Source: Opitutaceae bacterium (GTDB taxonomy: Bacteria > Verrucomicrobiota > Verrucomicrobiia > Opitutales > Opitutaceae). From it: a stretch of DNA of 64,000 bases. The notes beneath the pieces are model-generated. The model was not told where the DNA came from and ran no database searches. It saw only the letters and a program-made list of their open reading frames with translations. The stretch spans positions 310,001 through 374,000 of the forward strand of contig JABTUS010000002.1 of the NCBI GenBank assembly GCA_015075305.1, given 5' to 3'. Below are positions 438 to 6,004 of this stretch, piece by piece (the stretch's first letter is position 1; each line of letters begins with the position of its first letter). Position numbers and translations under genes: made by a program.

Positions 438-458
438 TGTCCCGCGTCACGGAGTTTC
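438..458 (+). repeat. Left terminal inverted repeat of the transposon
   Basis: Starts TGTCCCGCGTCACGGAGTTT. The reverse complement of the right end (3984 back to 3964) reads TGTTCCGCGTCACGGTGTTT, so 18 of the first 20 bases agree. The match stops exactly at TGT, which fixes the boundary. Confidence 0.85.
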
Positions 459-586
459 CTGAAGACGGGAGTGGATTTGGTCAGGGTGGGAGCGACAGTG
501 GTCTGAAGGATCGGGTTTGGAGCGTGGCGGGGGTTGGGGTGAAGAGAGTGGCGTAAGAGGGAGAGGAGGGATTAAGAGGTTGGGGA

Positions 587-1132
587 ATGCAGCGGATCCA
601 CCCCACGGCGCTGAGTCCTGAGCAATACATCGAGACGGAGGCCCATCGGCAGGTGCGTGGTGAAGGATTGTGTCCGCGGTGTGGAAAGGGTCGGTTGCAA
701 CGGCATGGATTTTACAGTCGTGGCGTGACAGGGGTGGCGGGGCAGGAGCTGCGGGTGCTGGTGGCACGATTCATCTGCGCAGCGTGCAGGGGTACGGTGA
801 GCTACCTGCCGGGATTCGCGTTGTCGTACCGGCTGGTGCAGGTTTCGACGTTTGAAGCGTTTCTCGAGGGGGAGTTCTGGCGAAGGGAAGTGCAGCGGTG
901 GCTGTCGGTGCTGGAGGACTATCGTCGGCGGATGCTTGGCTACGCGACGGAGCTTTGGCGGCGGGTGGGATGCGGCTTGGGCCGTGCACCTCCGGCGAGC
1001 AGCAGGGCGATGTGGCCCTGGCTGAAAGCGGCGTGCGGTGGATTGACCTCCGCCGCACGCCGACTGGTGGCCGAGTTCAGGACAACCCTGTTTCGGCAGT
1101 ACCAGTGCCATCAGCCAGCGGGGGTGTGGTGA
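587..1132 (+). CDS. Zinc-ribbon protein of the transposon (DUF6431-like)
   Basis: First gene of the transposon, 181 aa and open throughout. Residues about 25-75 hold two Cys pairs, CPRC near residue 29 and CAAC near residue 65, separated by a basic stretch with HGFYSRG. This resembles the N-terminal zinc ribbons that help transposases bind DNA, and I recall proteins of this kind annotated as DUF6431. A role in end or target recognition is inference, based on its fixed place beside a DDE transposase and an ATPase. The C-terminal half is Arg/Trp-rich and unrecognised. Transcription probably starts in the left end, about 150 bp upstream. Confidence 0.65.
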   Translation: MQRIHPTALSPEQYIETEAHRQVRGEGLCPRCGKGRLQRHGFYSRGVTGVAGQELRVLVARFICAACRGTVSYLPGFALSYRLVQVSTFEAFLEGEFWRREVQRWLSVLEDYRRRMLGYATELWRRVGCGLGRAPPASSRAMWPWLKAACGGLTSAARRLVAEFRTTLFRQYQCHQPAGVW

Positions 1133-1239
1133 ACACCACGGTTGGCCCGGAGAGACCGGGTTCGAACGTGAAGGGAGTAGCAGCCCACACAACGAAAATA
1201 TCGCGATCGTGAACCGGAGCGGTGAAACGCTTTCGGGGT

Positions 1240-2509
1240 ATGAAAATCACTCCTTCGGAAGAGGAATCACGGGAAGCGAGGGCGCTGGCGCGCTTCGCCG
1301 CCGTTCAGGCGGTGATGCAGGCGGTCCGGAACGGACTGCCGTTGATGCAGGCGGCGCAACAGGCCGCGCAGCAGGCCTGGGACGGGCGGCTGTATTCGGC
1401 CGCGACGATCGAGGACTGGTACTACGACTACAGGCACGGCCAGTTTGCCGCGCTGCACAGTCAAAGGCGTTGTGACCGGGGAAAATCGAAGGCGATGGAT
1501 TCGGCCGCGGTGGAGGCGTTGTGCAGACTGAGGCGGGAGCATCCGGGCCTGACACTCAAAGCCCTGGCGGAGGAGTTGGTGCGGCAGGGGATCCTGGAGC
1601 GCGGCAGTGTGAGCGAAAGCACGCTGCGGAGGCGGCTGGTGGAGGCGGGATTGGACCGGCGCAGCGTGCGGGCCGGTTCGGGTCTTAGCGGGGGGCCGAC
1701 GAAGGCCTTCGAACTGCCGCTGCCGAATCTATTGTGGATGGCCGACTGCATGCACGGGCCGACGCTGAGGACCGGGGGGAATGCAGGGGCGCAGCGCACG
1801 TATTTGTTCGCGCTGCTCGACGACTGCTCGCGGCTGTGCGTGCACGGGCAGTTTTACGAGCACGAACGCCTGGAGGGTTTCCGGATGCGCTGCGGCGGGC
1901 GCTCCAGACCCGCAGGCTGCCGGAGAAACTCTACACGGACAATGGAGCGGCGTTCCGCAGCCAGCATCTGGCGGTCGTGTGTGGAACCTCGGCATCCGCC
2001 TGATCCACGCGAAGCCGTACCACAGCTGGTCGAAGGGCAAGATCGAGCGGTTCTTTTCCACGGTGCAGACCCAGTTCCTCCCGCCGCTGGTGTTCACGCC
2101 GGTGCACTCCATCGACGAATTGAACCGGCGGTTCTGGCAGTGGCTGGAGAGCGGGTACCATCAACACGTGCACTCGGCCCTGGCCGGCGAGGCACCGGCG
2201 CAGCGCTTCGCACGGCTGGGCACGGCGTTGAGGCTGCTGGATGCGAACGCGCCACTCGACCGCTTGTTCTTCATGCGGGTGGAGCGGCGGGTGCGCAAGG
2301 ATGCGACCTTCTCGCTGGAAGCGGGCCTTTGGGAGGTGGCGGCGCATCTGCGCGGGCAGCTCATCACGGTGCGTTTCGATCCGGTGAGCCTGGCCCGGGT
2401 GGAGGTCTGGCTGGGCGAGCGGTTCATCGGGCTGGCGGTGCGCTGTGACAAGCACCGCAACGCGAAAATCCCCTTCGTGACCAACGACTATGAGCGCGAA
2501 ACCCACTGA
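1240..2509 (+). pseudogene. DDE (rve-type) transposase of the transposon, frameshifted
   Basis: Catalytic transposase with an N-terminal helical/HTH region (LTLKALAEELVRQG and SESTLRRRLVEAG) and an integrase core. The catalytic residues are Asp in ADCMHGP (codon 1744-1746), Asp in YTDNG (1938-1940) and Glu in GKIERFF (2045-2047); the last two are about 35 residues apart, as in DD35E enzymes. The reading frame changes near 1878 and again near 1978, so the protein is split over three frames. With two corrections it would be about 420 aa. The start is the ATG at 1240; a GTG at 1222 is also possible. The end overlaps the ATPase start by 20 bases, suggesting translational coupling in the intact element. 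Confidence 0.8.
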
Positions 2510-3349
2510 AGCCCCGGCGCTGGACCTGGCGCTCAAGACGCTGTGGGGTGCCAGCCGATGGCCGGGGATGGCCGACGGCGGGGTGGTCCTTGCCCACCCC
2601 GCCTGGCAGGAGGCGTACCGACGACTCGACCAACTGGCCGTTGTGCGCGCCAGCGGTGTCCTTCACGGGCCCAATGGCGTGGGGAAAAGCACCCTGTTGC
2701 ACCGCTGGAGCGAACGGTTGAGCCCCGCAGTATCGCTTCGGTGCGGATGACGCAGCGGGCGACTCGCGGCCAGCACGACTCCGCCATCTGCTGGCGCGTC
2801 ACACCGGTGAAACTCGGTGGCCGGGAGCGAAGTACCGCAAGGCGACAACGTCGGCCTGCTGAGCGAACTGTGGCAGGTGGGGCTCCGGTGCGGCCGGTGC
2901 TCGTCATCGAGGAGGCGCAGGATCTGTCCGTGGCCGCACTGGAGGAACTGCGCCTGCTCACCTGCGCCCGCGCACCTCGACGCGGTCCCGCCGTTCTCCC
3001 TGATCCTCTGCGGGACGAGGATCTGCTCGGTCGCCTGGAACTGAATGTGAACCGCGCCCTGGTGTCGCGGCTGGGCTTCTGCCTTCATCTGGCCCCCTGG
3101 CCCGCGGAGAGTTTTTCCGAGTACCTGCACGAGCGCCTGGCCGAGGTCGGCATCCACTCCAGCCCCTTTGAGCCGGCCGCCGAAACCCTGCTGCTGCAAT
3201 CGGGACAGGGGCTGCCGCGCACGCTCAACGCCCTTTTGCAGCGCGCCATGGAGCAGGCAGCCCTGGCGAACCGGCGCGTTGTCACCACCGCGGATGTCCA
3301 GTTCGCCCTCGATGCGCTGCCGTGGCTGGCGCGAATCCGTCCGTCGTGA
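2490..3349 (+). pseudogene. AAA ATPase of the transposon (ExeA/TniB/TnsC-like), frameshifted
   Basis: Target-selection or transposase-activating ATPase. Walker A is GPNGVGKST near 2670 and Walker B is PVLVIEEAQD near 2900, followed by an ExeA-type C-terminal region (GLPRTLNALLQRAMEQA). The frame is open from 2490 to about 2725 and from about 2885 to 3349, but between and just after these blocks it changes at least three times. ATPases of this group (IstB, TniB, TnsC, MuB) load on target DNA and stimulate the DDE transposase. The ATG at 2490 overlaps the transposase end. Whether the breaks are decay or assembly error is unknown. Confidence 0.75.
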
Positions 3350-3355
3350 GGCACC

Positions 3356-3844
3356 ATGCAACCGGCCGACCCCACGTCCGTCGTGCCTGCCCTGCTCGAG
3401 GAAATCCGCCGCCGCTTCTATGCCCAAGCCGAAGCGCGCACCTTCCATCGCGACCGGCGCATGCTGCTTTACGCGCTGAGCTGGCCGGCGACCTGGCTGG
3501 AGCACCGCGCGCTCACGTGTGCCTCGGCCCGCTACACCACGCTGATCACCGACCGCCTCGACGACATCGCCGCGCACGGTGATCCCGCCCGTTACGGCCC
3601 ATACTTTCCGGCGTATCTGCTCAAATGCGTCCAGGATTGGTTCCAGCATCACGGCGACGAACTCGACGCTGAACTCAAACACATCCGAAACGCCCTCGAT
3701 CAAATCCTCGCCTCACCCTCGCTCGCCCTGACGGTCCGGCGGGACGCCCACCACCTCGCATTGCTCGCGGCCGCTCATCGGCTGCTCCACACCCAGCGCA
3801 GCCAACGCCAGCCCGCCGCCGACCGCCAGCTGTCGCTGTTTTGA
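3356..3844 (+). CDS. Transposon accessory protein ending in QLSLF (candidate sliding-clamp binder)
   Basis: 162-aa protein, last gene of the transposon, open throughout, starting 6 bases after the ATPase stop. It is largely helical and charged, with a Trp/Tyr-rich middle (YALSWPATWLEH, then YGPYFPAYLLKCVQDWF) and no family I recognise. The last five residues are QLSLF directly before the stop. Known biology: QL(S/D)LF is the bacterial beta-clamp-binding consensus, and Tn7 TnsE reaches replication forks through the clamp. Inference: this protein could couple insertion to replication. The tail position makes the motif accessible, but a five-residue match can arise by chance. Confidence 0.6.
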   Translation: MQPADPTSVVPALLEEIRRRFYAQAEARTFHRDRRMLLYALSWPATWLEHRALTCASARYTTLITDRLDDIAAHGDPARYGPYFPAYLLKCVQDWFQHHGDELDAELKHIRNALDQILASPSLALTVRRDAHHLALLAAAHRLLHTQRSQRQPAADRQLSLF

Positions 3845-3963
3845 TCTCCGCCGCGATCAACGTGGCGTCACACCGCGTCGCTTTTCCATCACGTCACGCT
3901 CCACCCGGAGCACCCGCAAACAGCTCTACTCCCGTGCCGCATTTATCACGAAAAAACGTTCCT

Positions 3964-3984
3964 GAAACACCGTGACGCGGAACA
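3964..3984 (-). repeat. Right terminal inverted repeat of the transposon
   Basis: Read on the minus strand from 3984 it begins TGTTCCGCGTCACGGTGTTT and pairs with the left end at 438. Further inside the right end there are more GTGACG-type motifs (around 3868 and 3893), possible extra transposase-binding sites; the left end shows a weaker likeness. Confidence 0.85.
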
Positions 3985-3991
3985 CCACTCC
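3985..3991. repeat. Target-site duplication, right copy
   Basis: ccactcc, identical to 431-437; see the left copy. Confidence 0.8.
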
Positions 3992-4479
3992 TGACCTTGA
4001 CCCAGTGTAAACTCGACGTGCAGCCACCGGCTGTAACCGAGCACCAGCACAAAGAAACTCAATGCGCGCACGGTGCCGTCCACCTCGACCGCGCCAGAAG
4101 CTGCCCCAGTCGACCTGGGCGCACTGGCCGGGCGCAAACTTCAGCGTCAGGAACGCCTCCGTGCGGGGTGGACGTATCCGGCGAATGTACTCCTTCACGA
4201 TCGAGTAGCTGCCCTCGTAGCCCTGCTCTTGAGCCTGCACCAAACCTGCATCGCGCTCAGCGGATGCGCCTCGATCAGCCGTGCGATCGCCGCGCGGGTA
4301 CGGATCGAGCTTGGGCAGCGGGGTCTTTGCGCGCCGCGACTGCGCTCGTACTTTCCGCGCTTGAGATTTGCCGTCCTGACAGTCTGCCAATGCAGCCCGA
4401 GTGCGGCCGCAATCTGCGTCATGTTCATTCCGGACGCCGCCGCGGCCTTGATCTGGCAGTAGTGTTCGTAGCCGATCAC
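3985..4479 (-). pseudogene. istA: istA, N-terminal part (IS21 transposase)
   Basis: Start is GTG at 4479 with a good ribosome-binding site (GGAGG seven bases upstream). It encodes an HTH (MNMTQIAAALGLHWQTVRTA), then SYSIVKEYIRRIRPPRTEAF and the start of the integrase core with FAPGQCAQVDWG, which holds the first catalytic Asp. The frame changes at least twice (around 4300 and near 4110). It stops at 3985, where the four-gene transposon has inserted; the rest of istA is at 1-437. The GTG overlaps the TGA of the upstream accessory gene (GTGA), so the two were co-translated. Confidence 0.8.
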
Positions 4480-5256
4480 GACGCCACCTCCAATCCGAGC
4501 ACCTGATACAACGGTGCCTCGTAGAGCGATCACACCTGCATCGATGAGCTGGCGGCGCTTCACCGATCGACTCCTCACCCAGGGAAAGCAGGCGCGCGAG
4601 TGTGCGGTCGGCGTAGTAGCTCAGCCCGTGTTCGTCACCGACGGTGACGAGCACAAAATGCAGCGCCCACGCTGGTGCCGTTGCCTTCATCAGGTAGTTT
4701 CCGCGGACCAGTCGATGGTCCACCCAGCTAAACTGGTGAGGCACGCGCCGCACCCGGTTGATTGCAATCAAGTGTTTTTCCATAGGCGGGCCGCGGGATG
4801 TCCTTGCCCAATACGGCCCGGCCCCCGAGTGCAGCCGGCGCGTCATTTGTGCGATGTCGTCTTGTAAGACACTTCCGGTGAGATGCGCGATAAGCCCCAC
4901 CATCACAGGGGTTTGCCTCGCCATGATGTCTTGTAAGACAAGTTCCTCGTCTTGTGGCGCAATACGCGTTCGCAGCAGGTTGTGAATCCAGGCGGTCTTG
5001 CAAGACAACTTTCGCGCCTGCGCCGCCGCTTCCAATACCCCGGATGCGCCGCCTGCCACGCCCGCGCTCGCGCCGCATTCTCCGGTCCGCAAAAGTAGTC
5101 CGCGTTCTGCCGACGACTCAGCCATCGACGCTGACTGTCGGCCTTGCGCGCCCTGCGACACGGCACCTTGCAGCAGTACCGCTGGCGCGCGATTGCGCAC
5201 ATCCGGAACGAAGAACTCCCGCAATGGCGGCACTTGCACGATCCCTTCGCATGCAT
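4476..5256 (-). pseudogene. Zinc-finger/HTH accessory gene upstream of istA, frameshifted
   Basis: First gene of the IS21-like element. The N-terminal part has Cys pairs (CRHCG, then RYCCKVPCRRARK) followed by NADYFCGPENAARARAWQAAHPGYW. The middle has a segment with SVLQDDIAQMTRRL. The C-terminal part (RVPHQFSWVDHRLVRGNYL, then LSYYADRTLARLLSLG) looks like a winged-helix or replication-initiator-type DNA-binding region and ends in LYQVLGLEVAS. I recall proteins of this layout next to IS21 transposases in environmental bacteria, but no function. Frame changes occur near 5030 and 4550, and there may be small indels near 5190-5215. Its TGA overlaps the istA GTG by four bases. Confidence 0.55.
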
Positions 5257-5448
5257 CGCCGACCAGTTTCACCACCTTCACCCCGCTCGACGATCCCACC
5301 CTCACTCACTATCCACCACCCATCCAGCAGGAAGAAAAACCACCCATTCGAAGAACCTCCACCCGCCTCCACCAAGCAAGAAAATCGCCCCAAGAAGACG
5401 TGGATTCCTACCCGCCACAAAACCATGACTTCTCTCTCGCCGCTGACA

Positions 5449-6004
5449 CGATACAGGGCACGCCATTCTGATAACACGCCTCGATCGCATGCTTCATCGT
5501 CACGCCATACGTGTACGATCGCACGCCGATGTCCTGGAGATCGATCACCAGCGCATCCAATCCCTGGAGCTGGGCCTGGGTCGGACGCCGATTCTGCCCA
5601 TAAAGCGAATAGACCGGAAGCTTCGTACCCGCATCGGCAGCGTCGCCGAACTCGGCACTCGCCAGTTCCGTGCCATGAAGCCCGTGCTCCGGAGCAAATA
5701 ATGCGACGAGTTGGACGCCACGGGCTCGGCGAAGAACATCGATGGTCGTTTCGCCGCGCCGATTGACCCCCGCAGCGTGTGTCAACAAGCCGATTCGTTT
5801 TCCCTTCACTGGCGCAAAGTCCTCCGCTTCCAGCACATCCACGCCGAGCATCACGGGAAATGTCAGATCGACCCGCATGGCCGATGCTGCGGAAGGCATC
5901 TCAAGATTGCGCGCGCCGGCGGGCTCAGCGACGACTGGATTTCTCCGGCAACCGACGGCCCATGGAAACACGACCAACAGCAAGCAGACCCAGTACAGCA
6001 GCAT
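5449..6004 (-). pseudogene. DUF1343 (NamZ-like) lipoprotein, truncated by the IS21-like element
   Basis: N-terminal half of a DUF1343 protein; characterised members (NamZ) are exo-beta-N-acetylmuramidases that trim peptidoglycan fragments. Family motifs seen are [34 protein letters not shown] and [12 protein letters not shown]. The next expected block, LDRPNPLGG, is missing: the sequence runs GVPCIV and then into the IS end at 5448. The chosen start (6004) gives a signal peptide ending in AVGC, a possible lipobox. An in-frame start at 6070 is also possible. The C-terminal half is not in this window. Confidence 0.8.

Follow-up and report, generated by a model that had tools for sequence, protein, structure and literature searches.

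The stretch of DNA analysed here, a 64,000-nucleotide window (bases 310001-374000 of contig C2) of the 4.87-Mb, 17-contig genome of an Opitutaceae bacterium, carries a compact transposon at positions 438-3984, whose genes stand in the order DUF6431 zinc protein, DDE transposase, AAA ATPase and a protein of 162 amino acids (aa) that ends in QLSLF. The 162-aa protein represents a new family of accessory proteins, carried by a transposon of a kind already known, and it is best read as a putative exchangeable subunit that would dock the element onto replication forks by a logic like that of TnsE. The helical body of the protein would join the ATPase or transposase of the element, its flexible C-terminal QLxLF tail would grip the host beta sliding clamp, and this grip would carry the transposition complex to DNA under replication, a job like that of TnsE in Tn7. 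Clamp binding, contact with the ATPase and the steering of insertion to forks, as opposed to a contribution later in the process, are all predicted in this scheme, and the chances that such a clamp-binding accessory subunit brings the complex to replicating DNA appear evenly balanced on the sequence data.

The C-terminal tail of the 162-aa protein

The open reading frame (ORF) of the 162-aa protein occupies positions 3356-3844 of the plus strand, and the codons of the terminal QLSLF, a predicted beta-clamp-binding peptide, were read at 3827-3841 of the same strand, in agreement with the initial annotation of the window. That annotation also held the protein to be without a recognised family, and no convincing family was obtained in Pfam, NCBIfam or PHROG. 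Comparison of 20 homologues with Pfam and PADLOC gave two weak families and one weak match, respectively, and the best hit of a PDB sequence search with the 162-aa protein (E 0.3) was unrelated. The AlphaFold model contains five confident helices (predicted local distance difference test (pLDDT) 86.5, predicted template modelling score 0.79) and a C-terminal end of low confidence (block pLDDT 59 and 47); a loose end behind confident helices fits what is expected of a clamp peptide. Fold searches against PDB and viral models gave no match at E <= 0.001, the best VIA-align Z being 3.3. General library scans of the 162-aa protein by sequence and fold returned no TnsE-type family or PDB chain, with no direct TnsE comparison made and the TnsE content of the libraries unchecked. 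No description of the 162-aa protein, or of the SSB-like tails considered below, was found among the titles and abstract openings of open-licence literature.

Beta-clamp-binding peptides have the consensus QxxL(x)F or QL(S/D)LF according to an excerpt of one source (PMC5371812) and QLxLF according to part of another (PMC4549789). A conserved C-terminal peptide of the QLxLF type, as in beta-clamp-binding proteins, was found in the 162-aa family. Among the 20 aligned homologues, position -5 is Q in 19, position -2 is L or F in all 20, and position -1 is F in 16; the entropies of these three positions are 0.29, 0.72 and 1.02 bits, compared with 1.9-3.25 bits at positions -6 to -18, and the linker ahead of the tail drifts in length and composition. 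Conservation of the motif in distant homologues, a check proposed in the initial annotation, was observed for strict QLxLF in 10/20 and for the looser form Q[LMTPRF]x[LF][FLI], drawn up after the tails had been seen, in 19/20. None of 707 control ORFs (at least 100 aa, from sampled stretches of the same genome) ended in either form, the window's own gene being displaced in this control by a longer antisense ORF. The null count in the controls and the conservation among homologues indicate that the tail is beyond chance. Rows that were partial, frame-shifted or interrupted stand outside the 20-row count: the other own-genome copies, L034 and L113 end in QLSLF, L042/L043 in QLTLF, L035 in QLTLL, and L124, which shares genome and tail with L115, in QRSLF; L123 has no motif, the fragment L041 has none in view, and the ends of L116, L122, L036, L029, G704 and G725 were out of view or not read.

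A conserved hydrophobic tail could also dock onto the ATPase or transposase and be no clamp ligand. Clamp binding is predicted from sequence and some homologues end in QTTFF or QFELL, which would suit such docking; the exact consensus in ten homologues, its C-terminal position and the variable, loosely modelled linker ahead of it argue against docking, and this alternative is considered very improbable.

A fourth gene probably exchanged among backbones

The 20 aligned homologues comprise 11 of transposon type and nine from phage-like or unassigned loci. In nine of the 11, the gene lies directly behind the ATPase gene, on three different backbones: w-type (window, L009, L114), b-type (L011-L014) and c-type (L118, L120). 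The exceptions are L010, which stands behind an ATPase remnant, and L115, which is preceded by other genes on its contig. Whether the gene always follows the ATPase, a check proposed in the initial annotation, was thus answered in the affirmative for most transposon-type copies, with these two and the nine homologues found elsewhere as exceptions.

Within types w, b and c, local alignments show the transposases to be 71, 83 and 86% identical and the 162-aa-type proteins 67, 75 and 59% identical, respectively. Between types, the corresponding identities are 30-36% for the transposase, 26-31% for the ATPase and 51-65% for the 162-aa-type protein. Since the fourth protein is far better conserved than the transposase and ATPase between types, but not within them, the fourth gene has probably moved between elements, exchange being the simplest reading of these comparisons. 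Slow evolution alone was rejected as the cause of the discordance, as the fourth protein is less conserved than the transposase within types. The transposases of b-type elements are 54-57% identical to that of Tn6049 (L011 57%, L012 54%), yet the fourth gene of Tn6049 differs, which suggests that the b-type slot was refilled. The helper protein seems to have been passed among different transposons and phages.

Distribution of homologues and the phage-like loci

Homologues were detected in 8/95 genomes of the nearest sample, 17/252 of the family, 12/372 of the order and 4/387 of the phylum, these samples overlapping and each including the window's own genome. One scan of genome contigs yielded seven loci and viral contigs (IMG/VR) one; phage records contained no relatives of the 162-aa protein, and plasmid records searched with a b-type homologue contained none. 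The relatives come from metagenome-assembled genomes labelled Opitutaceae, Opitutae or Verrucomicrobia and from one Betaproteobacteria bin, which makes an opitutacean host probable. An ATPase-based search mostly matched weakly similar ATPases (~21-35% identity) and was not used.

Mu-like prophages also harbour homologues: at three of the nine non-transposon loci (G021, G493 and G051:C31), a Mu-type transposition ATPase is encoded ~6-12 kb away. These homologues share 36-38% identity with the window protein, their gene position varies, and their tails read QLSLF (G021) and QTTFF (G493, G051). G021 is the only non-transposon locus with a matched Mu-type transposase, and it also encodes a Mu-type head protease. 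G051:C103 appears by eye to share neighbour genes with G493 and G051:C31, and no Mu-type transposition ATPase was detected in the DNA fetched around G058, G010, G604, G478 and the viral L058. Occurrence away from transposase genes, which the initial annotation had held to speak against its proposal, was therefore found in part, namely at the nine phage-like or unassigned loci, with the transposase match in G021 as noted.

Evidence on replication targeting

In Tn7, the accessory protein TnsE carries a beta-clamp motif and directs insertion to replicating DNA, according to an excerpt of PMC5371812. The 162-aa protein resembles it as a transposon accessory protein with such a motif, and it resembles the IS1634 transposases in having a C-terminal QLxLF-type motif within a transposition machinery, as far as these are covered in parts of PMC4549789 and PMC5371812.

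Several observations weigh against a fork-docking role. The orientation of the element agrees with contig-wide guanine-cytosine (GC) skew in six of 10 informative copies (G000 C1 twice and C2, G033:C86, G524:C12, G080:C156) and disagrees in four (the G000:C7 fragment, G062:C3, G408:C1, G509:C26), which is no better than chance; two G502 contigs and G033:C40, with skew near zero or mixed, are left out of this count. All five copies with a full gene set agree with the skew, a subset picked after looking. The sign of the skew is moreover a contig-wide one; locally, the skew is weak and of opposite sign over the surrounding 18 kb for the L030 copy and 12 kb for the G033 copy. Weaker tails are present in three homologues from phage settings (QTTFF) and in two others (ELPFG and QFELL), and the G408 homologue (L123) is without the motif in a gene that holds an internal stop. 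The G021 homologue adjoins the head protease gene among late phage genes and does not neighbour the transposase; the other phage-like loci gave no match to a Mu-type transposase.

Mu-like phages amplify by replicative transposition, and the tail might bind the clamp after strand transfer, recruiting polymerase or clamp for gap filling or for a Mu-like replicative start, with no part in target selection. The loci with a Mu-type transposition ATPase at some distance, the late-region position in G021 and the lack of a demonstrated orientation bias are consistent with such a recruiter. In the transposons, however, the gene adjoins the ATPase gene and seems to be exchanged there as a unit, as are the target selectors of Tn7-like elements; post-transfer recruitment is thus judged rather unlikely.

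Structure of the element and the origin of its frameshifts

The transposon is 3,547 bp long; its terminal inverted repeats measure 26 bp and the target duplication that flanks it 7 bp. Its boundaries had been placed correctly in the initial annotation, inverted repeats being present at both ends, and the flanking CCACTCC is newly added here. The left repeat, TGTCCCGCGTCACGGAGTTTCCTGAA, lies at 438-463 of the plus strand and was identified by repeat search; the same end is present in the own-genome copies L030 and L031, and a similar one in L009. The right repeat, found by the same search, lies at 3959-3984 of the minus strand, and the two 26-nt repeats are 85% complementary. The identical CCACTCC copies were read at 431-437 and 3985-3991.

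Profile matches also back the zinc-ribbon, DDE and AAA genes that had been proposed for the element. The zinc-ribbon protein (181 aa, 587-1132, plus strand) matches PF20020 (DUF6431) with E 4.2e-6 and 27.0 bits, just over the gathering score of 26.6. The DDE transposase (1222-2509, plus strand), with an IS481-like core and a Mu-type C-terminus, is frame-shifted in the assembly; NF033577 matches both of its pieces below the cut-off, and PF09299 matches the C-terminal piece. When four unbroken transposases were scanned with a simple pattern for their catalytic residues, the first D was located in 4/4, the second D in 3/4 and E in 1/4. The AAA ATPase (AAA_22; 2490-3349, plus strand) is likewise frame-shifted, with weak AAA matches on its pieces, and its family assignment comes from a PF13401 match on the unbroken ATPase of the relative L114; a MuB/TnsC-like role is presumed for it.

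The initial annotation had given weight to the 162-aa frame remaining open beside broken neighbours. The neighbours are indeed frame-shifted in the assembly, but the frameshifts look like uncorrected sequencing errors in the main rather than decay. Substitutions and gap runs are of similar number among the three full copies of the genome (27 and 28 for the window copy versus L030, 60 and 55 versus L031, and 64 and 48 for L030 versus L031), the 162-aa gene is itself frame-shifted in the other own-genome copies, and unbroken relatives exist (L009, L114 and L011), with unbroken transposases of 422-489 aa (422 aa in L114, 428 aa in L009); all three observations favour the sequencing-error explanation. 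If the frameshifts are mainly of this origin, the open 162-aa frame in the window says little.

Insertion sites

The element interrupts an IS21-type transposase gene (istA), the C-terminal part of which lies at positions 2-437 of the minus strand; NF033546 matches 5-388 of that strand (E 1.2e-32), below the cut-off, as expected of a fragment. The gene seems to continue on the minus strand beyond the right end of the element, this right-hand part being recognised by reading of the sequence. The same genome contains two further full copies, L030 (6349-9871) and L031 (6604-10109), and one fragment (L032); the copy in L009 spans 1881-5449. All three complete own-genome copies are located inside transposase genes of other insertion sequences (ISs), of IS21, IS4 and IS3 type, and the two sides of the IS3 transposase match profile positions 89-150 and 150-182, so that the break coincides with a single position. 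In L009, the copy directly adjoins an IS66 transposase. The b-type copies L011-L013 lie apparently outside transposase genes, their flanks being judged by reading. Targeting of transposase genes as a general rule was considered and dropped, since these b-type flanks, as read, show none and since the same pattern would arise if insertions at harmless sites were favoured by selection.

Target duplications measure 7 bp in the window, 5 bp in L031 and 3 bp in L011, compared with 4 bp for Tn6049 in an excerpt of PMC4739549. No exact duplication is present in L009 or in L030, which has GAAAGCC on both sides with an extra base on the left. In L120, a contig of 4,099 bp, positions 1-142 and 3958-4099 were read as identical, which would fit a left end of the c-type element lying ~205 bp beyond its right end, as in a tandem copy, a circle or an assembly loop. 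Beside the interrupted IS21 element, window positions 4851-5007 contain a 21-nt repeat in three copies with a GTCTTGTAAGACA-type core, spaced at 67-69 bp.

The absence of a common rule for these insertion sites would also suit a tail that acts as a general clamp tether, raising the frequency of transposition without choosing the landing place. Transposases of ISs such as IS1634 and IS608 bind the clamp, according to parts of PMC5371812 and PMC4549789, and a stronger clamp motif raised the transposition of an IS1634 element in Escherichia coli, as reported in an excerpt of the latter. A tether, however, could sit on the transposase as it does in those clamp-binding ISs, whereas the motif in the window is carried by a separate, seemingly exchanged accessory protein behind the ATPase, which suggests a regulatory role; a mere tether is hence regarded as improbable.

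Tn6049-type elements and their fourth proteins

The backbone of the window element belongs to a general type already known from Tn6049. This transposon of Cupriavidus metallidurans CH34 is described in part of PMC2864759 as present in 12 copies of 3.5 kb, with an ATPase named gspA, and in part of PMC4739549 as having TGT...ACA ends and 4-bp target repeats. Both elements measure ~3.5 kb, encode a zinc protein, an IS481-like DDE transposase, an AAA ATPase and a fourth ORF, and are bounded by TGT...ACA terminal inverted repeats. The same four-gene plan is present on plasmids of Pseudomonadota and Bacillota, and the view of the initial annotation that the element is new in kind finds no support for the element as a whole. 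The w-type transposase differs in belonging to another lineage (L009 is 32% identical to Tn6049 and 38% to the PGU19 element), and in place of the small fourth protein of Tn6049 the window has the 162-aa protein, to which no relation was detected.

The fourth proteins of Pseudomonadota are 62-78 aa in length. Eight were examined (L218:6300-6515, L220:6263-6478, L221:5974-6198, L223:4470-4706, L224:4460-4657, L225:4532-4729, L235:4418-4606 and L236:3471-3662); the records of A. caldus and Cupriavidus KK10 have no annotated ATPase there, but comparison revealed one immediately upstream. A P. phymatum copy outside these eight has a different C-terminus. The eight tips read DNDF, DEPF, DDPF, DDPF, HPPF, DLPF, DDPF and DESF, so that 6/8 end in PF, and in 7/8 a final F is combined with two or more acidic residues in the last six positions. 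A PF end was found in 0/657 own-genome ORFs and 3/152 plasmid-locus ORFs, and an acidic F end in 4/657 and 4/152, respectively, the plasmid-locus controls including some of the fourth proteins themselves. The C-terminus of SSB has an acidic tip with PF, and the tips of the proteobacterial proteins presumably resemble it. Homology of these small proteins with the 162-aa protein was tried and dropped (hhalign probability 0.8).

Three Bacillota fourth proteins differ, with the ends EAPF, DPI and ITI, and elements of Geobacillus, Thermobacillus and Planococcus have no annotated gene directly behind the ATPase. Three actinobacterial elements that were inspected have another arrangement or no annotated gene in this position. 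In c-like opitutacean elements (L282:3439-3744; L283:1846-2154, minus strand), the fourth protein is 102-103 aa long, contains ...GNAIDFxVQVLGRSFHxxMT... and has no known family; a primase-like resemblance found no support on testing. It is possible, though doubtful, that the fourth slot is a socket for interchangeable, non-homologous fork adaptors whose genes move between backbones, with the clamp-tail protein of 162 aa in Opitutales and Mu-like phages and an SSB-tip protein in Pseudomonadota.

Implications

TnsE is the best-known transposon protein that finds replication forks via the clamp. If the proposed docking role is true, it would suggest that fork coupling has been invented more than once and travels as a module, here with a protein that shows no kinship to TnsE. 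The compact element, with its four genes, would then offer a small test system for fork coupling, and the occurrence of clamp-type and SSB-type tails in one gene slot presents a directly testable split. If the socket interpretation is true, replication coupling would evolve apart from the transposition core.

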